Shown here: positions 28,322 to 39,346 of the stretch, in pieces
Numbering within the stretch: the first letter of the stretch is position 1
Layout of the letters: the number at the start of each line of letters is the position of its first letter
From: Streptomyces sp. Je 1-369
GTDB taxonomy: Bacteria > Actinomycetota > Actinomycetes > Streptomycetales > Streptomycetaceae
Direction: 5' to 3'
Length of the DNA stretch: 64,000 nucleotides
NCBI RefSeq assembly: GCF_026810505.1
Contig: NZ_CP101750.1
Coordinates: 959,448-1,023,447 of the forward strand
Made by a program: the position numbers and the translations under genes
The notes under the pieces: generated by a model
The model's input: only the letters and a program-made list of their open reading frames with translations
Database searches by the model: none
Told to the model about the DNA's origin: nothing

Positions 28322-28963
28322 TTGAAGTCACTGATCGACAACGCCCGTTCGTTCGCCACGACACACGTGGCGGATCCCCACAACGCAGCGGCCTTCCGGG
28401 CTCTCGAAGCCGGACAGTCACCCGAAGCCCTGTTCATCACCTGCTCCGACTCGCGCGTCGTCCCGGCCCTGATCACCGGGGCCCGGCCGGGCGAGCTCTT
28501 CGAACTCCGTACGGCGGGCAATGTCGTCCCGCCCTACCCCGAGGCCGGCATCGACGGCCGCGCCGCAGGCCCCATGAGTGAGGCCGCCACCATCGAGTAC
28601 GCGGTGTGCGTACTCGGCGTCCGCGACATCGTCGTCTGCGGACACTCCCACTGCGGCGCCGTCGGCGCGCTCGTGCGGCGCGAAGACCTGTCGGCCGTAC
28701 CGGCCGTTCGCGACTGGCTCGAGCACTCCGTCGGCCCCGACGCCACCCTGCGTTCACTGGCGGCGACCTCGCCCGACGTGGCGGAGGCCGTCCAGACCCA
28801 CGTACTGGCGCAGGTGGAGAGGCTCCACGCGTACCCCTGTGTGCGCGAGCGCATCGCCGACAACTCCCTGACACTGCACGCCTGGTACTACGAAGTGCAC
28901 ACGGGCACCGTCAGCACACACCGGCCGTCGGACACCGGCCGGCCCTCGTTCAGTCCGCTGTGA
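28322..28963 (+). CDS. Beta-class carbonic anhydrase
   Basis: 213 residues; interconverts CO2 and bicarbonate in the cytoplasm. The zinc-site motifs are complete: FITCSDSRVVP (Cys, Asp and Arg) near residue 37 and VVCGHSHCGAVGAL (His and Cys) near 99. SLIDNARSFATTHVADPHN at the N-terminus and VETQ-like VQTHVLAQVERLHAYPCVRE near 160 are also typical. Start is TTG with AGGAGG 9 nt upstream; the longer open frame upstream is not protein-like. The SulP transporter gene follows after 53 nt, a common pairing in which the two work on bicarbonate. Confidence 0.92.
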   Translation: MKSLIDNARSFATTHVADPHNAAAFRALEAGQSPEALFITCSDSRVVPALITGARPGELFELRTAGNVVPPYPEAGIDGRAAGPMSEAATIEYAVCVLGVRDIVVCGHSHCGAVGALVRREDLSAVPAVRDWLEHSVGPDATLRSLAATSPDVAEAVQTHVLAQVERLHAYPCVRERIADNSLTLHAWYYEVHTGTVSTHRPSDTGRPSFSPL

Positions 28964-29016: not shown

Positions 29017-30600
29017 ATGCCCTCCTCTCCCCCTTCCCTCTCCTCCTCCCTGCGTTCGCCCTTCGGCGCCCTGCGCGAACCGGGCGTGCTGCGGCGGGAC
29101 ATCCTCGCCTCGCTCGTCGTCTTCCTCGTCGCCCTGCCGCTGTGCGTCGGCGTGGCGGTCGCCTCCGGCGTACCTGCCGAACTCGGCCTGGTCACCGGCA
29201 TCGTCGGCGGCCTCGTCGTCGGCTGTCTGCCGGGCAGCGCCCTCCAGGTGAGCGGCCCGGCCGCCGGTCTCACCGTGCTCGTCTTCGAAGCCGTGCGCGA
29301 GTTCGGGCTGAGCATGCTCGGCGCGATCGTGCTGCTCACCGGCGCGCTCCAGATCGGCCTCGGCCTGCTCCGCTGCGGCCGGTGGTTCCGTGCGATATCG
29401 GTCTCCGTCGTCCAGGGCATGCTGGCCGGCATCGGCCTCGTGCTGATCTTCGGCCAGCTCTACACCATGGCCGGGGCCAAGCAGCCCCTCTCCGGCATGG
29501 ACAAGATCACCGGTCTGCCGGGGCTGCTCGCCGACACGGTCGGGGACACCACGGCGCTGACCGCCGCGGCCGTCGGACTCGGCACGATCGCCGTCCTCGT
29601 GCTGTGGCCGAAGCTGCCCCCCGCGGCTCGTGTGGTACCCGCCCCGCTGGCCGCCGTGGCCCTCGCCACGGCCGTCACCGCCGGATTCGACCTCGACGTG
29701 GCGAACGTGTCGGTGCGCGGCATGGTCGACGCCATCCAGCCGCCCGGCTTCGGCGACTTCGCGGAGCTCGGCAGCGTTGCGGTGCTCGGCACCGTCCTCG
29801 CGTTCACACTGATCGCGTCGGCCGAGTCGCTGTTCAGCGCGGCCGCGGTGGACCGCATGCACGACGGTCCCCGCACGCACTACGACAAGGAGCTCGTCGC
29901 CCAGGGCGTCGGCAACACGGTGTGCGGCATGCTCGGCGCGCTGCCGATGACCGCGGTGATCGTCCGCAGCTCCGCCAACGTACAGGCCGGGGCGCGCACC
30001 CCGCTCTCGCGGATCCTGCACGGCGCGTGGCTGCTGCTGTTCGCGGTGCTCCTGCCTGCCGCGCTCGGCATCATCCCCCTCGCGGCGCTCGCCGGCGTCC
30101 TGGTGCACGCGGGCTGCAAGCTGATCCCCGTCAAGGACATCGTGCCGCTCGCCCGCGCCCACCGCGGCGAGGCCGTCGTCCTCTCCGTCACGGCGATCGC
30201 CATCGTGGTCACCAACATGTTCGAGGGCGTCATCCTCGGCCTGGTGCTCGCGGTGGCCAAGTCCGCCTGGGACACCTCCCATGTCCACCTGGACGTACGG
30301 GAGCTCACCGACGGGCGGATGGTGGTGACCATCACCGGCAACGCCACGTTCCTGCGGCTCCCCCGCATCCTGGAGACCCTGGAGGCCATGCCGCAGGACC
30401 GCCCCATCGAGCTGGACCTGACGGCCGTGCGCCATCTGGACCACGCCTGCCGCACGACGCTGGAGAACTGGGCGCTGCGGCACAACGACAGCGGCACGGA
30501 AGCCGTCCGGATGAAGACGCTTCCGGTGGCCGAGGCCACGGACAAGACTGCGGCCAAGGCCGAGGTCCAGGCCGAGGACAAGGCCAAGGCGAAGGCCTGA
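29017..30600 (+). CDS. SulP-family anion (probably bicarbonate) transporter with STAS domain
   Basis: 527 residues, ten or more membrane helices. The N-terminal block DILASLVVFLVALPLCVGVAVASG near 30 and GLVVGCLPGSALQVSGPAAGL near 66 are SulP signatures. The C-terminal STAS domain lies at about 425-505 (VVTITGNATFLRLPRILE, IELDLTAVRHLDHACRTTLENWA). The last 25 residues are a Lys/Ala/Glu-rich tail (DKTAAKAEVQAEDKAKAKA) absent from most relatives. Because a beta-carbonic anhydrase gene lies just upstream, sodium- or proton-linked bicarbonate transport is more likely than sulfate; no sulfate assimilation genes are nearby. A nested hairpin follows. Confidence 0.9.
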   Translation: MPSSPPSLSSSLRSPFGALREPGVLRRDILASLVVFLVALPLCVGVAVASGVPAELGLVTGIVGGLVVGCLPGSALQVSGPAAGLTVLVFEAVREFGLSMLGAIVLLTGALQIGLGLLRCGRWFRAISVSVVQGMLAGIGLVLIFGQLYTMAGAKQPLSGMDKITGLPGLLADTVGDTTALTAAAVGLGTIAVLVLWPKLPPAARVVPAPLAAVALATAVTAGFDLDVANVSVRGMVDAIQPPGFGDFAELGSVAVLGTVLAFTLIASAESLFSAAAVDRMHDGPRTHYDKELVAQGVGNTVCGMLGALPMTAVIVRSSANVQAGARTPLSRILHGAWLLLFAVLLPAALGIIPLAALAGVLVHAGCKLIPVKDIVPLARAHRGEAVVLSVTAIAIVVTNMFEGVILGLVLAVAKSAWDTSHVHLDVRELTDGRMVVTITGNATFLRLPRILETLEAMPQDRPIELDLTAVRHLDHACRTTLENWALRHNDSGTEAVRMKTLPVAEATDKTAAKAEVQAEDKAKAKA

Positions 30601-30642: not shown

Positions 30643-30680
30643 CCGGGAGCCGGGTCCCGCACATGCGGTCCGGCCCCCGG
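30643..30680 (+). terminator. Nested hairpin terminator after the SulP gene
   Basis: Outer arms CCGGGAGCCGG and CCGGCCCCCGG (one mismatch) enclose an inner CCGC-ACAT-GCGG hairpin, 43 nt after the SulP stop. It suggests that the peptide gene at 30735 is a separate transcription unit. Confidence 0.6.
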
Positions 30681-30696
30681 TGTCCCACCCATCCCC

Positions 30697-30713
30697 TCGG
30701 CACGCCGTGCCGA
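30697..30713. promoter_or_regulatory. 17-bp palindrome just upstream of the GCIS-repeat peptide gene
   Basis: TCGGCACG-C-CGTGCCGA, perfect 8-nt arms around one base, ending 7-8 nt before the TGGAGG ribosome-binding site. With such a small centre it is more likely a protein-binding operator than an RNA hairpin. The regulator is unknown. Confidence 0.5.
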
Positions 30714-30734
30714 ACAGCCATGGAGGTTTTCACC

Positions 30735-30893
30735 GTGGAACAGCTCATCAAGCGCATGACGCAGGAGTCCGTCTGGCAGAAGTGGGTCGCGGTCAACTCG
30801 GCCCAGGGCGCGGGCGCGAAGGAAGGCTGCATCAGCGCGACGCCGAAGAGCGGCTGCATCAGCGCCACCGGCAAGACCGGCTGCATCTCCTAG
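30735..30893 (+). CDS. Candidate RiPP precursor peptide with three GCIS repeats (52 aa)
   Basis: 52 residues. Residues 1-20 form a helical, charged leader-like part (MEQLIKRMTQESVWQKWVAV). Residues 21-29 are a small-residue linker (NSAQGAGAK). The C-terminal 22 residues carry GCIS three times, with Cys at 32, 41 and 50, an exact 9-residue period; the spacers are ATPKS and ATGKT. The second Cys-Ser motif is thus followed each time by Ala-Thr-Pro/Gly-Lys-Ser/Thr, and the peptide ends at the third GCIS. GTG start has TGGAGG 7 nt upstream; an ATG five codons earlier lacks a site. The leader/core layout and repeated Cys/Ser/Thr units are like RiPP precursors, but no lanthipeptide, YcaO, radical-SAM, lasso or ATP-grasp enzyme is nearby. 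Downstream lie an adenylate-forming enzyme and a GRDP-like protein. The function is inferred. Confidence 0.7.
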   Translation: MEQLIKRMTQESVWQKWVAVNSAQGAGAKEGCISATPKSGCISATGKTGCIS

Positions 30894-30915
30894 TCGCGCC
30901 GAACCGGCGGGCGGT

Positions 30916-30952
30916 GGCGGTGACGACGGCGGCGCGAGCCGCGGTCACCGCC
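30916..30952 (+). terminator. Hairpin between the peptide gene and the adenylating-enzyme gene
   Basis: Arms GGCGGTGAC and GTCACCGCC enclose an inner GCGGC-GCGA-GCCGC hairpin, 23 nt after the peptide stop. A partial terminator here would give more precursor than enzyme transcript, the usual pattern in peptide natural-product operons. Confidence 0.5.
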
Positions 30953-31046
30953 CCCGCCCCGCCGGCCATCCCGCCGCACCGGCCGCACCCTCCACCCCGT
31001 CCGGCCCACCCCGTCCGGCCCCATCCCGCCCAGCACCGGAGCCCCT

Positions 31047-32267
31047 TTGAACCGCCTGCCGAGCGCCGACGTCCTGGACAAGGTCCGGGACATCCCCCTG
31101 TACCGCGCGTCCGTCGAGCGCGGCGACTTCCCTGTCCTGGAGAAGCCGGAGATCGCCCGGGACTTCCCCGCCAACTGGATGACCCCCGAACTGGAGCGGG
31201 CCCTGGAGACGGGCGACGCCGAGTTCGTGCTGTCCACCGGGACCAACCACGCCCGTATGCAGCTCATCCGGCCGCCGTACTTCCTGCTCCGCTCCTACTA
31301 CCGCCTGTGGAGCGAGCACCCCGAACTCGGCGCCCTCTGGCACGCGGAGGCACGGCGGATCTCGCTGACCACCGTCCTCGCCACCGAGCACGTCGCCCGC
31401 GTCAACGCCCGCAAGCCGGGCGCGACGCCCGGTGAACGCTGGCTGGACCACCGCACGCTGTACCTCAACCGGCAGCTGCACCCCGCCGGTTGGGACCGTG
31501 CCGAGGTCGAGCGGATGCTCGCCGAGATCCGCGAGGTGAGCGCCGCGCACCCCACGGGCGCGTACCTCCTGGACTGCTCGAGCTACCACCTGGCGCACCT
31601 GGCCCGGAAGGTCACCGAGTGGGACCTGTGGGACCGTTTCCCGCGCCCGGCCGGGATCATCCACGCCTACGAGTACACGCCGCTGAACGTACGGGCGTAT
31701 CTGCGCACCCACTTCGACTGCCCCATCGTCGACCTCTTCGGCAGTACGGAACTCGGCTACCTCTTCTACAGCGAGGGCGAAGGGCGCTACCGCCCCTACC
31801 TCCACGACATGAGCGTGGAGCTGATTCCGGTGGAGCCGGGCAGCGGCATCCACAGCCTGATCGTCACCAGCGTCCGCAACCCGTACATGCCGCTGGTCCG
31901 CTACCGCTCCGGCGACTGCGTCCGCACCGCCGACGGCAGCGCGGACCCGGAGCGGATCGTCTCCTTCTGCGGCCGTGAGAAGGAGCTGCTCGCCACGCCC
32001 GAGGGCCCCGTGGCCCAGGCCGACCTGGACACCCGGGTCACCGCGGCCTCGCCCCGCGTCTTCCTGCATCAGCTGCACCTCACCGGCGAGGGCCGGAGCG
32101 AGCTGTGGTGCACGACGTTCGACGGGAAGCCGTTCACACCCGACGAGGCCGCCGAACTGGCCACATCCGTCGCGGCGTTGACCGGGCGCTCCTGCCACGT
32201 GGAGCACCGTGACCACGTGCCGATCGGGCGCTCCGGCAAGTACGCCTGGCTGGCCGCGCCGAAGTGA
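31047..32267 (+). CDS. PaaK-like adenylate-forming enzyme of the GCIS-peptide locus
   Basis: 406 residues of the ANL (acyl/aryl adenylating) superfamily, nearest in layout to phenylacetate-CoA ligases and coenzyme F390 synthetases. Visible motifs: phosphate-binding LSTGTNHARMQL near 62, the ATP/Mg motif DLFGSTELGY near 230, PLVRYRSGD near 284 and GREKELLATPEGPV near 309. It should activate a carboxylate as an acyl-AMP. It contains no carrier or reductase domain. Start TTG with GGAG upstream. It lies 153 nt after the peptide gene and overlaps or abuts the next gene, so the three probably act together. The substrate could be the peptide C-terminus, a side chain, or a small acid attached to it; the sequence does not decide. 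Confidence 0.8.
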   Translation: MNRLPSADVLDKVRDIPLYRASVERGDFPVLEKPEIARDFPANWMTPELERALETGDAEFVLSTGTNHARMQLIRPPYFLLRSYYRLWSEHPELGALWHAEARRISLTTVLATEHVARVNARKPGATPGERWLDHRTLYLNRQLHPAGWDRAEVERMLAEIREVSAAHPTGAYLLDCSSYHLAHLARKVTEWDLWDRFPRPAGIIHAYEYTPLNVRAYLRTHFDCPIVDLFGSTELGYLFYSEGEGRYRPYLHDMSVELIPVEPGSGIHSLIVTSVRNPYMPLVRYRSGDCVRTADGSADPERIVSFCGREKELLATPEGPVAQADLDTRVTAASPRVFLHQLHLTGEGRSELWCTTFDGKPFTPDEAAELATSVAALTGRSCHVEHRDHVPIGRSGKYAWLAAPK

Positions 32268-32317
32268 CCGCCTCAATGACCGCGGCCGCGCCGCCGACCC
32301 ACCGGACCGGAGCCCTC

Positions 32318-32830
32318 ATGCAGACTTCCGTATCGCACGCCCCCACCGCCGAAGAGCTGCTCGGCGCCGACCTGCACGCCGAGGTCGTACGGCACTTCGC
32401 CGCGAAGCCCGACGCCCCGGAGCCCGCGTACGTCACCCACCAGGTCCGCGAATGCCTCCGCTACCTGTACCTGGTCTCCCGCCACCCCGACCGCCTCGCC
32501 GGTCTCTTCCTCCCCGTCGAGCAGGACATCGACGAGATCTGGCACTACCTGATCCTGCAGACCCGGGAGTACCGGGAACTGTGCGAACAGCGGTTGCCCG
32601 GAGGCCACTTCATCCACCACCGGAGCGTGTCGTACGACGCCTACCAGCAGGAGCCGGGGCGCGAGACGGCGGCGGAGGAGGCGCTGCGCTGGATTCCCCT
32701 CTACACCGCCGCGTTCGGTCCGTACGACGAGGACGCCCTGCCGCACTGGACGGTCGTGCGGTTCCTCCACGAGGTGCTCGAACTGTCCCTGACGGAGATC
32801 GCGGCGCTGGCGCACAGCACGGAAGGCTGA
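32318..32830 (+). CDS. GRDP-like protein of the GCIS-peptide locus
   Basis: 170 residues, helical. It carries the motif of glycine-rich-domain-containing-protein-like (DUF1399/GRDP) proteins: DIDEIWHYLILQTREYRELC followed by GGHFIHH, near residues 69-100. The spaced His, Cys and His-His residues (WH...Y...C....G..HH) look like a metal site. The family has no known enzymatic role. ATG at 32318 is preferred because CCGGAG lies just upstream, in the same spacing as for the preceding gene; a GTG at 32264 that overlaps the previous stop by 4 nt would add 18 residues of low complexity. It is probably a partner of the adenylating enzyme in modifying the peptide. Confidence 0.65.
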   Translation: MQTSVSHAPTAEELLGADLHAEVVRHFAAKPDAPEPAYVTHQVRECLRYLYLVSRHPDRLAGLFLPVEQDIDEIWHYLILQTREYRELCEQRLPGGHFIHHRSVSYDAYQQEPGRETAAEEALRWIPLYTAAFGPYDEDALPHWTVVRFLHEVLELSLTEIAALAHSTEG

Positions 32831-33006: not shown

Positions 33007-34398
33007 GTGACCGTATCCGGCATGCCGCAGTCCGCCGCCCCGCTCCACACCGGCAGCCACGACCTGCCCGCCTCCGCCGAGCTCTCCCGCTTCATGGCGG
33101 AGGCCTGGGGCCCGTCCGCCCTGCCCGACTCCGACCGGGTGCCCGCGCACGCCGTCACCCCGGCCCGCCGGGCGCGGCTGTCCGCCCGCTTCCCCGGAGA
33201 ACGGCTGATCGTGCCCGCGGGCGAGCTCACGGTCCGGTCGAACGACTGCGACCACCGCTTCCGGCCGCACAGCGCGTACGCCTGGCTGACCGGCCTGACC
33301 GGTGAGGACCAGGCCGGCGGCGTGCTGGTCATGGAGCCTTCGGGGCCGCACGGGCACGAGGCGGTGCTCCATCTGCGGCCGCGTTCACCGCGTGTCGACG
33401 GCGACGAGGAGTTCTACCGGGACCGGCGCTACGGCGAGTTCTGGGTGGGCCGCCGCCCCGACCTCGCCGAGGCGGAACGGCTCACCGGCATCCGCTGCGC
33501 CCACCTGGACTCCCTGGGGACACCGACGGGCCGCGACGCCGCCTCCGATCCCGAACTGGCCGCCGCGCTCTCCGAGTTGCGGCTCGTCAAGGACGCCTGG
33601 GAGGTCGAGCAGTTGCAGCTGGCCGTCGACCACACCACCGCCGGGTTCGAGGACGTGGTCCGTGCGCTGCCGCGCGCGCTCACGCATCCGCGCGGGGAGC
33701 GCTGGATCGAGGGGGTGTTCGGCCTGCGCGCCCGCGCCGAGGGCAACGGCACCGGCTACGAGACCATCGCGGCCTCCGGAGCCCATGCCTGCGTGCTCCA
33801 CTGGATCCGCAACGACGGACGCCTCGACCGTGACGAGCTGCTGCTCCTGGACGCGGGCGTGGAGACCGACACGCTCTACACCGCCGACATCACCCGCACC
33901 CTGCCGCTCTCCGGCCGCTTCTCCCCCGTCCAGCGCCAGGTGTACGAGCTGGTGCTCGCCGCGCAGGACGCGGGGATGGCGGCGCTGCGTCCCGGTGCGC
34001 GCTTCCGGGACTTCCACCGGGCCGCCATGCGGGTCGTCGCGGAGGGCCTTGCCGAGTGGGGCGTCCTCAAGGACGCGCGGGGCGACCTGCACCGCCGCTA
34101 CACCCTGTGCGGCAGCGGCCACATGCTCGGGCTCGATGTGCACGACTGCGCCAAGGCACGCGCCGAAACCTATCTGGACGGTGTCCTGGAGGAGGGCCAG
34201 GTCCTCACCGTGGAGCCCGGTCTCTACCTCCAGCCCGACGACGGGACACTCCCCGCCGAGCTGCGCGGCATCGGCGTCCGGATCGAGGACGACCTGGTCG
34301 TGACGGCGGAGGGCGCCCGCCTGATGTCGGGCGCGCTGCCGCGCACGGTCGAGGGCGTCGAGGAGTGGATGGGCACACTGCTCGACGCCCGCGTCTGA
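33007..34398 (+). CDS. M24-family aminopeptidase P (Xaa-Pro aminopeptidase)
   Basis: 463 residues, cytoplasmic metallopeptidase that removes N-terminal residues preceding proline. The N-terminal non-catalytic domain has the PepP pattern SNDCDHRFRPHSAYAWLTGL near 80; the catalytic pita-bread domain has ELLLLDAGVETDTLYTADIT (metal-binding Asp) near 276, GHMLGLDVHDCAK (His) near 373, LTVEPGLYL (Glu) near 399 and GIGVRIEDDLVV (Glu) near 420, so all metal ligands are present. GTG start has GGGAG upstream. It lies 176 nt after the GRDP-like gene with a TAGTAAT box in between, so it may have its own promoter; membership in the peptide locus is possible, not shown. Confidence 0.9.
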   Translation: MTVSGMPQSAAPLHTGSHDLPASAELSRFMAEAWGPSALPDSDRVPAHAVTPARRARLSARFPGERLIVPAGELTVRSNDCDHRFRPHSAYAWLTGLTGEDQAGGVLVMEPSGPHGHEAVLHLRPRSPRVDGDEEFYRDRRYGEFWVGRRPDLAEAERLTGIRCAHLDSLGTPTGRDAASDPELAAALSELRLVKDAWEVEQLQLAVDHTTAGFEDVVRALPRALTHPRGERWIEGVFGLRARAEGNGTGYETIAASGAHACVLHWIRNDGRLDRDELLLLDAGVETDTLYTADITRTLPLSGRFSPVQRQVYELVLAAQDAGMAALRPGARFRDFHRAAMRVVAEGLAEWGVLKDARGDLHRRYTLCGSGHMLGLDVHDCAKARAETYLDGVLEEGQVLTVEPGLYLQPDDGTLPAELRGIGVRIEDDLVVTAEGARLMSGALPRTVEGVEEWMGTLLDARV

Positions 34399-35376: not shown

Positions 35377-37038
35377 TCAGCGCAGGATGCCCGCCCTGCC
35401 CGACCGTGCCGTGGAGACGAGTTCGGCGACCGTGGCGATCTTGACGCGGGGGCGGCCCGCGCTCGCGCCCCTGGTCACCTCGGCCCGCTCGATGGCGGCG
35501 AGTCCGCGCGCGTCGACCACCTGGCGGTTGCGGCGGCGCGCCAGCCGGTGGAAGGCCTTCGTGGCGTGTTGCGGGGCGGGCAGCGCGCCCGCGACCGCGT
35601 CGGCGAGGAGGGTGGTGACCGTTTCTGCGGCGCAGGTGCGGTTGGCGCCGATGCCGCCGCTGGGGCCGCGCTTGATCCAGCCCACGACGTAGGTGCCGGG
35701 GCGTCCCTCCACCCGGCCGCCCTCGTGGGGCACGGTGCCGCCGGTCTCGTCGAAGGGCAGTCCGGCGACGGGCGTGCCGCGGTAGCCGATGGCGCGCAGG
35801 AGCAGGCCCGCCGGGATCGGCTCCTCCCCCGCGGCCGTCGCCACACGCACCGCGTCGACCCGTTCCGTGCCGAGGAGTTCGACGGGTTCGCAGTGGAAGC
35901 GCAGCACGATGCGGCGGCCGGGCTCCGGCTGTCGTTCCCAGTCGGGCCGTACGCGCGTGACGCCCCGCAGGGCCGCCGCCTTGTCCCTCGCGTCCGCGGC
36001 GTCGATGGCGTCCGCGACGCGCGGGTCGTGGTCGTCGACGACCAGGTCCACGCCCGGCAGGTGCTTGAGTGCCAGGAGTTCGGACCTGGTGTACGCGGCG
36101 TGCTCGGGGCCGCGCCGGGCGAGCAGGACGACCTCGCGGACCTTGCTGCCGCGCAGGGCGCGCAGCGCGTGGTCGGCGATGTCGGTGCGGGCGAGGGTGT
36201 CGGGGTCGGCGAGCAGGATGCGGGCGACGTCCAGGGCCACGTTGCCGTTGCCGACGACGACGGCACGCTCCGCCGACAGGTCGATGCCGTCCGGCTCCGC
36301 GTCGGGGTGGGCGTTGTACCAGGCGACGAACGCGGTCGCGGAGATGCTGCCGGGCAGCTCCTCGCCGGGGATCGAAAGGCGCCGGTCGGCCGAGGCGCCC
36401 ACGGCGTAGACGACCGCGTCGTGGTGGGCCGCGATCTCCTCCGGGGTGACGTCGGTGCCCACGTCGAGGCCGAGGTGCATCCGTACCCGCGGGTGCGCGT
36501 GGAAGCGGGCGAAGGTCTCGCCGACCTTCTTGGTCGCGGGGTGGTCGGGCGCGACGCCGTAGCGCACGAGTCCGCCCGCGACCGGGAGCCGGTCGATGAG
36601 GGTGACCTCGGCGCTGGTGTGCAGCAGCAGGTCCTGCACGGCGTACATCCCGGCGGGACCGGTGCCGACGACGGCGACCTTCAGCGGCGCGAAGTCCGCG
36701 GGCAGGACGCGGGGGAAGGACGGCTCGCCCCAGGCATGGAAGTTGGGACTGCCGGGGCCGGGATCGGGTGCGGCGTCCGCCGTCGCGTCGTCGTAGTAGG
36801 CCGCGTTGATCGCGGCGTACTCCTTCTGCGCGAGGGGCAGGGTGTCCACCGGGAAGATCGCGTCGACGGGGCACGCGTCGGCGCAGGCGCCGCAGGAGAT
36901 GCACGTCTTCGGGTCGATGTGCAGCATCTCCGTGCTGCCGAACGCCCGCTCCTCCGGCGTGGGGTGGATGCAGTTGACCGGGCACACGGCCACGCAGGTG
37001 GCGTCGTTGCAACAGGTCTGGGTGATGGCGTAGGTCAT
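35377..37038 (-). CDS. Ferredoxin-fused FAD/NADP oxidoreductase (FprB-like ferredoxin reductase)
   Basis: 553 residues. Residues 1-70 are a bacterial two-cluster ferredoxin (CCNDATCVAVCPVNCIHP and CISCGACADACPVDAI), followed by an adrenodoxin-reductase-type flavoprotein: KVAVVGTGPAGMYAVQDLL near 120, VVVGNGNVALDVARILL near 262 and VVGWIKRGPSGGIGANRTCA near 465. This fusion is that of mycobacterial FprB and delivers electrons from NADPH to an oxygenase or P450. It lies 40 nt downstream of the AurF-like oxygenase on the same strand and is its probable electron donor. The C-terminal 80 residues resemble the tail found in this subfamily (FHRLARRRNRQVVDARGL). Confidence 0.92.
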   Translation of the reverse strand: MTYAITQTCCNDATCVAVCPVNCIHPTPEERAFGSTEMLHIDPKTCISCGACADACPVDAIFPVDTLPLAQKEYAAINAAYYDDATADAAPDPGPGSPNFHAWGEPSFPRVLPADFAPLKVAVVGTGPAGMYAVQDLLLHTSAEVTLIDRLPVAGGLVRYGVAPDHPATKKVGETFARFHAHPRVRMHLGLDVGTDVTPEEIAAHHDAVVYAVGASADRRLSIPGEELPGSISATAFVAWYNAHPDAEPDGIDLSAERAVVVGNGNVALDVARILLADPDTLARTDIADHALRALRGSKVREVVLLARRGPEHAAYTRSELLALKHLPGVDLVVDDHDPRVADAIDAADARDKAAALRGVTRVRPDWERQPEPGRRIVLRFHCEPVELLGTERVDAVRVATAAGEEPIPAGLLLRAIGYRGTPVAGLPFDETGGTVPHEGGRVEGRPGTYVVGWIKRGPSGGIGANRTCAAETVTTLLADAVAGALPAPQHATKAFHRLARRRNRQVVDARGLAAIERAEVTRGASAGRPRVKIATVAELVSTARSGRAGILR

Positions 37039-37078: not shown

Positions 37079-37993
37079 TCAGATGAGGTGGGCGCGCTTG
37101 TAGAAGACCAGGGCCGGCTTGGTGAGCAGGCCGCACGACGCGAGGAACTCCATGAGGCCCGAACAGCTGGACCGCATCATGGACTTGTGGTGTTCGTTGG
37201 CCTTCGCCTCGGCGATGGCGCGCTCCTCGTCGAGCCCGGCGTTCGCGTACACCTTGCGGTTCACCATGCTGGTGACGATGACGTACGACGCGATGGCGAT
37301 GATGAGGGAGTTGATCTCGCGGCGTACGCGGCCCGCGCCCGCGAGCTGCTTGCGCGTCTGGTCGCGGGCGAACTTCATGTGCCGCGACTCCTCGACGACA
37401 TGAATGTTGTTGATGGTGCGGACGAACGGCACGACGCGCTCGTCCCGCATCCAGTCGCGCTGCATCACGTCGAGGACTTCCTCGGCGACGAGGATCGCGG
37501 CGTACGCGGCCTCACCGAAGGCGACGGACTTGAAGACCCTGCCGAGTTCGGTCGCCCAGCGGCGCGGCCGGTAGGCGGGGGCGCCGAGCTTCTCGGCGCC
37601 GCGGGCGAACATGATGGAGTGGCGGCACTCCTCGGCGATCTCGGTGAGCGCCCACTGCACCTCGGTGCTCGTCGGGTCCTTGGCGTAGACGTCGCGCAGC
37701 ACCATCTGCTGCAGGATCATCTCGAACCAGATGCCCGTGCTGGCCACCGAGGCGGCCTCCTGCCGGGTCAGCTCCTTGCGCTGCCCCTCGGTCATCTCCC
37801 GCCAGTAGGCGGTGCCGTAGAGCGTGCTCCACTCCGGGCTGGCGCCGTGGCAGTCGCGGTCGAGGGGGGTGTCCCAGTCGACTTCGACGGCCGGGTCGTA
37901 CGCCAGCACAGCGGCCGAGTCCAACAGCCGCCGGGCGACGTCGCCCTCCGGAGAACTGCCCTGTGTGCTCGGCCGAACAGTGCTGCTTGCCAT
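37079..37993 (-). CDS. AurF-like diiron oxygenase
   Basis: 304 residues of the AurF/p-aminobenzoate N-oxygenase ferritin-like family. Diiron ligands are visible as Glu in TGIWFEMILQQ near 94, the first ExxH in EIAEECRHSI near 128, Glu in ILVAEEVLD, and the second helix with NNIHVVEESRHMKF near 203 (His, Glu-Glu, His). Such enzymes use oxygen on amines or other substrates. Directly followed by the ferredoxin-fused reductase. AAGGAG precedes the ATG by 9 nt and a 37-bp palindrome lies about 85-120 nt upstream. There is no other biosynthetic gene beside the pair, so the substrate is unknown; similar pairs are common in actinomycetes. Confidence 0.88.
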   Translation of the reverse strand: MASSTVRPSTQGSSPEGDVARRLLDSAAVLAYDPAVEVDWDTPLDRDCHGASPEWSTLYGTAYWREMTEGQRKELTRQEAASVASTGIWFEMILQQMVLRDVYAKDPTSTEVQWALTEIAEECRHSIMFARGAEKLGAPAYRPRRWATELGRVFKSVAFGEAAYAAILVAEEVLDVMQRDWMRDERVVPFVRTINNIHVVEESRHMKFARDQTRKQLAGAGRVRREINSLIIAIASYVIVTSMVNRKVYANAGLDEERAIAEAKANEHHKSMMRSSCSGLMEFLASCGLLTKPALVFYKRAHLI

Positions 37994-38179: not shown

Positions 38180-39346
38180 TCAGCCGGTCGTGGCCGGCCA
38201 GCGGATCCGTGTGCTGCACGCCGAGACGACCAGCGCGGAGGCGGCGACGGCGGCCAGACCCCACACCAGACTGCTGGCGTGGGCGATGAAACCGATGAGC
38301 GGCGGTCCCGCCAGCAGACCCGTCGTCCCCATGGCCGCCACCAGCGTCAGCGAGTCCGAGCCCTGCCCGGCCGCGGCCACGTAGACGCACGGGGTGACGG
38401 CCGCGATGCCGAGGCCGACACAGGCGAAGCCGAGCAGCGCGGGCACCAGGCCCCCGCTCAGCAGGGCGAGCGCGAGACCCGACCCTGCCAGCACGCTCCC
38501 GGTCAGGACGACGCGCCCGTCGCCCCAGCGGCTGCGCCATCCGTCGGCGAAGAGGCGGGCGACCAGCATCATTCCGGAGACGACGGCGATGCCCAGCGGC
38601 GCCAGCTCGGCGGACGCCTCGGCCACGTCCTCCAGATAGAGCGCCGACCAGTCGTTCATGGCACCCTCGGTGACGGTGCCGAACGCCATGGCGACGCACA
38701 TCCACAGCGTCACCCGGGACGGCACCGTCCACTTGGACTTCTTCTTCTCCGGCGCCGCGGCGCCGGCCGTCTCCCGCTCCGTCAGGAGTCCCGAGCGGGC
38801 GCAGACCACCAGCAGGAGCAGGAAGAGCGCGGCCGCCCCGAAGTGCGCGGCGACCGCCGAGGTCACCGCGTTCATGCCGGAGGCGAGCAGCGCGGCGAGC
38901 AGCGAACCGCCGCTGAACGTCGCGTGCAGGCGGGCCATGGCGTTGCGCTCGTACCGCTTCTCCAGCTCGGCCCCCTGCGCGTTCATGGCGACGTTCAGAC
39001 AGCCCACGAGGACGCCGTCGACGCACATGACGAGCAGCGCCACGGGATAGTTGGGTGCTCCGGCCAGCGCGAGGAGCAGCAGCGCCAGACAGAGCGCCGA
39101 AAGGAGCGCGAGGCGCTGCGAGCCGAGGCGCCGCATCAGGACGGCGACGAGCGGGAACGACACGGCGGCGCCGATACCCGCGGCCATGAGGAGCACGCCG
39201 ACCTCGGCCGCTGACAGGTCGAGGTCCTCCTTGATGGCCGGGATGCGCGACGCCCAGGTCGCGTACTGGAAGCCGAGCGAGCAGAACAGTGCCGCGATCG
39301 CCAGCTGGCTCCGATGGAAAGGATCACGCACGCGGAGCACCCGCAT
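38180..39346 (-). CDS. MFS transporter of the PhyH/DUF6271 cluster
   Basis: 388 residues, about 12 hydrophobic segments. Opening FCSLGFQYATWASRIPAIKEDL with LSAAEVGVLLMAAGIGA near 39 is typical of the YbjJ/Fsr-like branch of major facilitator proteins. It is the last gene of the five-gene operon and its start lies inside the acetyltransferase gene (23-nt overlap), so it is translationally coupled. It probably exports the product of the operon or gives self-resistance; this is inferred from place only. Confidence 0.88.
   Translation of the reverse strand: MRVLRVRDPFHRSQLAIAALFCSLGFQYATWASRIPAIKEDLDLSAAEVGVLLMAAGIGAAVSFPLVAVLMRRLGSQRLALLSALCLALLLLALAGAPNYPVALLVMCVDGVLVGCLNVAMNAQGAELEKRYERNAMARLHATFSGGSLLAALLASGMNAVTSAVAAHFGAAALFLLLLVVCARSGLLTERETAGAAAPEKKKSKWTVPSRVTLWMCVAMAFGTVTEGAMNDWSALYLEDVAEASAELAPLGIAVVSGMMLVARLFADGWRSRWGDGRVVLTGSVLAGSGLALALLSGGLVPALLGFACVGLGIAAVTPCVYVAAAGQGSDSLTLVAAMGTTGLLAGPPLIGFIAHASSLVWGLAAVAASALVVSACSTRIRWPATTG

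Follow-up and report, generated by a model that had tools for sequence, protein, structure and literature searches.

Pearlins and other scaffold peptides such as TglA use a cysteine at or near their C-terminus as a platform for small-molecule chemistry, relying on PEARL ligases and other enzymes. In the place of these enzymes, a locus of Streptomyces sp. Je 1-369 encodes a PaaK-like adenylating enzyme of the ANL type and a GRDP-like protein, next to a short cysteine-repeat peptide. We analyzed this locus within a window of 64,000 nucleotides (NZ_CP101750.1, positions 959,448 to 1,023,447 of the forward strand), which belongs to a genome consisting of a single contig of 8.82 Mb. The three genes form a small cassette, found mostly in Streptomyces, which appears to be a hitherto undescribed pathway to a ribosomally made peptide natural product.

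The cassette enzyme shares its PaaK-type ANL fold with NatL2 (nataxazole), AjiA1 and ClxA (closoxazole), PaaK-like ligases that work without coenzyme A (CoA). These ligases join two small aryl acids and have no precursor peptide, whereas the cassette has one, and they share 14-20% identity with the cassette enzyme in structural alignments. NatL2 is described as making an ester from an acyl-AMP, which the zinc enzyme NatAM turns into an oxazole (PMC7204872); this zinc partner is an amidohydrolase, while the partner in the cassette is GRDP-like. The thiopeptide nosiheptide provides, as described in PMC5585349, a precedent for an ANL enzyme inside the pathway of a ribosomally synthesized and post-translationally modified peptide (RiPP), though via a carrier protein: the adenylating enzyme NosI brings in an aryl acid and loads it onto the carrier protein NosJ, from which it is released by NosK. 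In contrast, no carrier protein recurs in the 29 cassette loci whose neighboring genes were clustered.

In the window, the peptide gene (30735-30893, GTG start) encodes 52 residues, a leader (residues 1-22) followed by three K-x-G-C-I-S repeats with a period of 9. It is preceded by a ribosome-binding site, GGAGG at 30722-30726, and an 8-nt spacer extending to 30734. The PaaK-like gene (31047-32267, TTG start, 406 aa) and the GRDP-like gene (32318-32830, ATG start, 170 aa, predicted to be all-helical) follow in this order, all three on the plus strand. Neither the peptide nor the GRDP-like protein has a credible match in Pfam or NCBIfam. A known anti-phage defence system was rejected, as scanning the three proteins against the PADLOC models gave no match at E≤1.

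The original prediction held that such peptides, if genuine, should accompany PaaK-like and GRDP-like pairs in other genera, with a conserved leader and a varying number of repeats. This was borne out, and a precursor peptide associated with two dedicated enzyme-like proteins is consequently well supported. A scan of named genomes returned 121 stretches encoding a PaaK-like relative, of which the best 80 were analyzed (77 Streptomyces, one Kitasatospora, Kutzneria viridogrisea and Paraburkholderia domus). In all 80, the DNA 61-357 nt upstream of the PaaK-like match encodes a peptide containing two or more GC[I/V/L]S motifs, and 79 carry a GRDP-like gene, the 80th contig stopping just after the PaaK-like gene. 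Within the family of the window, strong peptide matches (E≤6.2e-12) occur in 29 of 297 genomes, its own genome included, and all 28 relatives carry PaaK-like and GRDP-like genes with the peptide; weaker matches (E 0.001-0.009 in G026, G219 and G264) were dropped as chance. Searching with the PaaK-like alignment identified 28 of 292 family genomes, belonging to 2 of 17 genera, and all 28 carry the peptide. In the 29th peptide genome, G296, the peptide locus includes a PaaK-like gene, and this genome evidently lies outside the 292 drawn. At the class level, 7 of 394 genomes encode the PaaK-like protein, and exactly these seven contain the peptide at E≤1e-10; eight further genomes with weak peptide matches (E 5e-4 to 0.01, several with internal stops) were dropped, none of them having a PaaK-like match. 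The family-genome set and the named set overlap (e.g., G224 contig 578 and L060, whose contigs are equal in length), and their counts are not independent.

The full set of three genes is also present in Kutzneria and in G524, an actinomycete outside the family of the window. In the family of Paraburkholderia, 3 of 299 genomes encode the PaaK-like protein, each together with peptide, GRDP-like and major facilitator superfamily (MFS) genes. In a tree of 84 PaaK-like rows, which is unrooted and has long branches, these three form one clade (SH-aLRT 99) adjoining Kutzneria (84) among actinobacterial rows, a position suggesting that the cassette may have passed between phyla. Transport as phage or plasmid cargo was rejected, since PaaK-like relatives were absent from the viral contigs and plasmids searched and peptide relatives from the plasmids. 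The GRDP-like alignment likewise matched none of the viral contigs.

The sequence grammar of the precursor was derived from 83 peptides, i.e., those of the 80 named loci, the window, L158 and L164, with L163 considered apart. Residues L4, W14, W17, N21 and S22 are invariant in all 83, so that the 22-residue leader ends in an invariant N-S. It is followed by 2-4 repeats of the core unit K-x-G-C-[I/V]-[S/C] (three repeats in 70 peptides, two in 7, four in 6). Among the 248 repeats, 235 read GCIS, 12 GCVS and one GCIC, and a Lys stands two residues N-terminal of the Gly in 245. Repeats are spaced by 9 residues in 124 of 165 intervals and by 8 in 29. As originally proposed, the window peptide has three Cys-Ile-Ser motifs at an exact period of 9, read directly from the open reading frame (ORF) as three GCIS with Cys at residues 32, 41 and 50. 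Every Cys of the 83 peptides sits in GC[I/V/L]S, except two belonging to the GCIC of L082. Degenerate repeats, GYIS in L110 and the last repeat GRAS in L136, were excluded from the 248, and thus two of the seven peptides counted with two repeats hold a third, degenerate one. The variant precursor of L163 (G737, minus strand from 7055) reads KTGCVC, KTGCVC and KSGCIS, exchanging Ser for Cys in two of three repeats. Position 4 of the motif therefore accepts Ser or Cys, given the exchanges in L082 and L163, and Thr never occupies the Ser position in the 83 peptides. Lys, Cys and Ser/Cys are conserved in the core and Asp/Glu are not. The leader codons have a pN/pS of 0.51 on saturated distances, a weak test of selection, and the case for the peptide consequently rests on its conserved residues. 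As in RiPP systems, an encoded precursor with a conserved leader and a variable core is found across the 83 peptides, co-encoded with dedicated putative enzymes.

The PaaK-like protein matches no Pfam family at E≤1, and its best NCBIfam match, DVU1553_fam_AMP, reaches 32.3 bits against a cut-off of 300. Its best PDB match by sequence is ClxA, weak but significant (E 1.1e-5). A structural model built from 15 alignment rows (mean pLDDT 80.6) was compared using Foldseek, whose best matches include PaaK1, a Bacteroides acyl-CoA ligase, AjiA1, NatL2 and ClxA (E 4.4e-16, probability 1.00), the top PaaK-type matches having a TM-score of ~0.6 and a root-mean-square deviation (rmsd) of 6-8 Å (13-14 Å for some chains). 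ClxA residues T222 and D281, described as contacting the phosphate and ribose of AMP (PMC12519233), align, as counted by eye, with T234 and D290, which are invariant in 84/84 PaaK-like rows. K398, present in 83 of 84 rows (a gap in the remaining one), corresponds to ClxA K393 by its near-C-terminal position, not by alignment. With E235 and R310, these make up the candidate active-site residues. Assignment to the PaaK-type ANL enzymes, as in the original prediction, is therefore supported by the predicted fold and the aligned adenylation residues.

Residues E68, D72, E73, W75, H76, C89, H101 and R102 are invariant in all 82 GRDP-like relatives aligned, and the protein may bind a metal. Foldseek and VIA-align returned no PDB match of weight, so we name no fold for it. 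The GRDP-like label refers to PF07173, whose NCBI name is "glycine-rich domain-containing protein-like", and it stood up in part. It falls short of the Pfam cut-off: in G000 the sole PF07173 match is the cassette gene itself (E 1.3, 12.2 bits, cut-off 22.7), five other carrier genomes searched gave none, and none of 16 cassette members matched; none of 41 relatives matched at E≤0.01 either, but 14 control genomes were also empty, which makes this last search uninformative. Similarity at the profile level, by contrast, upholds the label. Using hhalign, the cassette protein aligns with a Variovorax plasmid protein (L166:5848-6420) with probability 97.0 and E 8.2e-11, and a D-x-x-W-H core is common to the cassette protein and GRDP-like proteins. 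The Variovorax protein itself scores 17.3 bits against PF07173, below the cut-off, and two of its relatives on plasmids are named GRDP-like by NCBI.

The Variovorax protein has a tail of AWCSL repeats. Used as a query, it found matches in 22 of the 120 genomes searched from the Paraburkholderia family, two of them through cassette proteins. Fourteen strong matches in this family (L169-L182) consist of a GRDP-like domain fused to tandem Cys-repeat arrays of variable length, with units such as AYCVKPEAK, AYCAVSASSK and AYCIRQAAD. A conserved protein of ~1,100-1,170 aa, not PaaK-like, adjoins the fused gene in all eight loci whose surroundings were fetched, and the fused proteins look like a family of their own. 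Several other GRDP-like proteins thus carry Gly/Cys-rich or Cys-repeat tails in cis, whereas the cassette protein lacks a tail and the repeats reside on a separate peptide. The pairing of GRDP-like domains with tandem Cys repeats thus recurs, in cis in the fused proteins and in trans in the cassette, which supports, but does not prove, a functional tie between the two. Weak GRDP-like matches were also seen in one plasmid and two phages; the phage proteins, both hypothetical, are gp33 of Streptomyces phage Kromp (L167:3851-4369, E 1e-6 with the cassette protein) and a protein of Klebsiella phage 05F01 (L168:3935-4795, E 3e-6).

Signals for expression of the cassette are partly conserved. GGAGG, GGAG or GAGG precedes the peptide start in 80/80 named relatives, although the choice of start favored such sites. 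RiPP operons often carry a hairpin between the precursor gene and the enzyme genes. The hairpin originally noticed after the peptide gene was recovered: the 80 nt directly following the stop (30894-30973, plus strand) fold with a z of -2.87 in the window, and z is below -2 in 65 of 81 loci (mean -3.3; 63 of 81 in a first run), compared with 3/81 control stretches inside PaaK, 2/80 after PaaK and 13/81 before the peptide. Speaking against it, the z in the window is only -0.55 when 147 nt are folded, and Paraburkholderia locus L135 has no hairpin (z +0.8). This structure may act as an attenuator or messenger RNA stabilizer between the precursor and enzyme genes. Two signals proposed upstream of the peptide fared less well. 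The terminator was rejected, as no terminator-like site was found and the stem-loop that is possible there has an unexceptional fold (z -1.20). The 17-bp palindrome is present (30697-30713) but lies outside the conserved system; none of seven relatives examined has a perfect palindrome of 14-22 bp in the 260 nt upstream, so it was rejected as a conserved operator.

The upstream element that is conserved is the box TCATTGACAnTCnCTTGGcCATCCcTTTACnTTCg, missing in the window. It comprises three TTGAC-like pentamers at 11-bp steps, starting 65-139 nt before the peptide start, a spacing known from OmpR/SARP-type activator sites. Of 81 loci, 70 match the box at ≥12 of its 15 positions, versus 2 of 1,620 mononucleotide shuffles, a count which is partly circular because the scoring pattern was drawn from the same upstream sequences. 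Besides the shuffles, the control is the lack of second sites, a profile scan finding none in 1.02 Mb of named loci and no site at all in the window. The box falls short at 7-8/15 in the window, L059, L060, L061, L116 and L135, and at 10-11/15 in L096, L100, L101, L126 and L127. The neighbor families present in at least half of the 29 clustered loci include no regulator gene. In the window and in L059-L061, genes for a carbonic anhydrase and a SulP transporter lie directly upstream in the same direction, so expression of the cassette may come from that unit in these four loci. Against this idea, L066, L071, L073, L082 and L095 share the arrangement yet keep the box.

The families found in half or more of the 29 clustered loci are the peptide, the PaaK-like and GRDP-like proteins, SulP, MFS and carbonic anhydrase. 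An MFS gene lies downstream of the cassette in 58 of the 80 named loci, and that of the three Paraburkholderia-family loci is of a different type from the Streptomyces one. In the window, the two upstream neighbors are a beta-carbonic anhydrase (Pro_CA, 28322-28963) and a SulP-family anion transporter (29017-30600), both on the plus strand. At least one of them lies within ~6 kb of the cassette, upstream or downstream, in 50 of 81 scorable loci (three were unscorable); five arrangements occur, and 17 changes are counted along the tree. By our estimate this linkage is far above chance for genes present in one to few copies per genome. SulP relatives are nonetheless found in 122 of 150 family genomes, only 7 of them peptide carriers. 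The pair was accordingly rejected as an exclusive part and is considered a recurrent associate that does not define the cassette; it may serve in substrate supply, self-protection or co-regulation. The M24 aminopeptidase at 33007-34398 was likewise rejected as a cassette part, having no match in 28 family loci or in the 80 named loci.

We give about even chances to the interpretation of these genes as a RiPP-type biosynthetic cassette whose peptide repeats are decorated by way of acyl-AMP. The peptide gene would yield a precursor with a 22-residue leader and 2-4 core repeats, kept in excess over the enzymes by the hairpin. The PaaK-like enzyme would adenylate a small, perhaps aromatic, carboxylic acid, and the acyl group would pass directly to a nucleophile of each repeat, initially the Cys thiol or the Ser hydroxyl, from which it might move on to a nearby nitrogen. 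This transfer would involve neither CoA nor a carrier protein, as with NatL2 and ClxA between two small molecules; direct transfer is favored because these solved relatives couple the acid they activate with an external nucleophile and do so without CoA. The GRDP-like protein, with its invariant acidic, His and Cys residues, might bind the leader and/or complete the reaction, much as NatAM acts after NatL2. A protease encoded outside the cassette would cut the leader or the repeats, and the MFS pump would export a small product. The original prediction had the enzyme activate a carboxylate of the peptide itself. By analogy with NatL2 and ClxA, we prefer an external carboxylate with the peptide as acceptor, because the core conserves the nucleophiles Lys, Cys and Ser/Cys and not the acids Asp/Glu. 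More tentatively, and with the odds leaning against it, the cassette could define a new RiPP class in which a PaaK-like ligase directly acylates K-x-G-C-[I/V]-[S/C] repeats and the GRDP-like protein is an unrecognized partner of Cys repeats, acting in trans here and in cis in the Paraburkholderia family. A bolder variant would have the carbonic anhydrase/SulP pair supply bicarbonate as the activated carboxylate, leading to a carbonylated or carbamoylated product.

Several observations weigh against decoration of the repeats by acyl-AMP chemistry. The cassette is known from its genes, and a product, a modification and an enzyme activity are predicted from them. Structural matches of the PaaK-like protein are distant (TM ~0.6, rmsd 6-8 Å, 14-20% identity for PaaK-type hits), and its residues 58-75, including the P-loop-like part, are modelled poorly (pLDDT < 50). 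Lys is almost as conserved as Cys, which makes it another candidate acceptor, yet it is missing from the first repeat in both L135 and L164. The MFS gene is not universal: it occurs in 58 of the 80 named loci, the window has none directly downstream, and in L164 two reading frames share the match. Hidden Markov model scans, confined to the window's neighborhood, turned up neither a protease or peptide exporter nor an enzyme of a classical RiPP class, and the families in half or more of the 29 loci include none; in particular, Pfam scans of 14 window proteins (22.9-39.3 kb) detected no LanB/C/M, YcaO, radical SAM, lasso or ATP-grasp enzyme. No acid-making gene recurs either, which would require a common metabolite to serve as the acid, and the carbonic anhydrase/SulP link (50/81) is left unexplained.

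Some of the same features could be read otherwise. The recurrence of an MFS transporter, the several near-identical sites on each chain and the lack of a recurrent carrier protein would all suit a peptide that serves as a reusable carrier, its Cys holding an acyl group as a thioester (or Lys/Ser otherwise) while the GRDP-like protein acts on the bound group and only the small molecule leaves through the MFS pump. Such logic recalls carrier proteins or pearlins. Yet no release enzyme recurs, the repeat number varies as in multi-core precursors, and RiPP precursors typically have a fixed leader at their N-terminus; we thus regard a carrier role as unlikely, if worth keeping in mind. The linkage to carbonic anhydrase or SulP in several arrangements, with both directly upstream in the window, raises another view, namely that the Cys-repeat peptide is a working small protein (for metal, CO2 or thiol) which the PaaK-like and GRDP-like proteins mature or regulate, without any secreted natural product. 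It is consistent with the Cys-tailed GRDP-like proteins that adjoin the ~1,100-1,170 aa protein, and not a PaaK-like one, in 8/8 loci. This view has a rather low probability in our judgment, as 31 of 81 loci have neither gene nearby and the patchy spread (28/292 family genomes, 2/17 genera), the presence in two phyla and the MFS linkage typify specialized metabolism.

Formation of azolines is less probable again. Here both enzymes would activate the peptide, with the PaaK-like protein in the role of YcaO, and the repeat Cys (and Ser/Cys) would cyclize. The near-invariant Cys and the Ser or Cys at position 4 agree with such chemistry, as does the oxazole in which the PaaK-type ligase NatL2 and the zinc enzyme NatAM are described to end (PMC7204872). 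It leaves the conserved Lys unexplained, however, and would sit poorly with the lack of Thr among the 83 peptides. Moreover, we know of no ANL enzyme that activates a backbone amide. Finally, longer ORFs overlap the peptide in this G+C-rich DNA, which, with a leader pN/pS of only 0.51, could suggest a chance ORF merely lying beside two ordinary enzyme genes. The conservation of the peptide in 80/80 named loci and in L158, L163 and L164, with its invariant leader residues and repeat grammar, refutes this and leaves it a negligible probability.

If acylation of the repeats is correct, ANL adenylation without a carrier protein would join the known ways of decorating ribosomal peptides, and handling tandem cysteine repeats could be a job of the GRDP-like domain. 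The carbonic anhydrase/SulP link might in turn be a clue to a target, a resistance or a substrate. The cassette is not rare, as one scan gave 121 stretches that encode the PaaK-like protein, and it has representatives in two phyla. RiPP mining mostly begins from known enzymes or models. Since no curated model covers the peptide or the GRDP-like protein, and those that match the PaaK-like protein do so below threshold, the cassette would be easily missed. We found no report of it among titles and abstract openings, a search that leaves most subscription papers uncovered and absence from the literature unproven. The same kind of search in the same genus produced the decRiPPter candidates of Streptomyces (PMC7794033). 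The main text of that paper contains the terms "AMP-binding", "adenylat", "carbonic" and "MFS" 0 times, and nine passages on "ligase" concern ATP-grasp, peptide or T4 ligases; a listing in its supplements is possible.

Other genes near the cassette may be mentioned. About 4 kb away in the window is a gene for an AurF-type p-aminobenzoate N-oxygenase (37079-37993, Pfam E 7e-100), alongside a ferredoxin/pyridine-nucleotide oxidoreductase (35377-37038) and an MFS protein (38180-39346), on the minus strand. Flavin monooxygenase-like genes, recognized by eye, lie near the cassette in 3 of the 29 clustered loci and in G524, for example ~1.7 kb upstream of the peptide in L031 and on the minus strand at L158:5599-7908.

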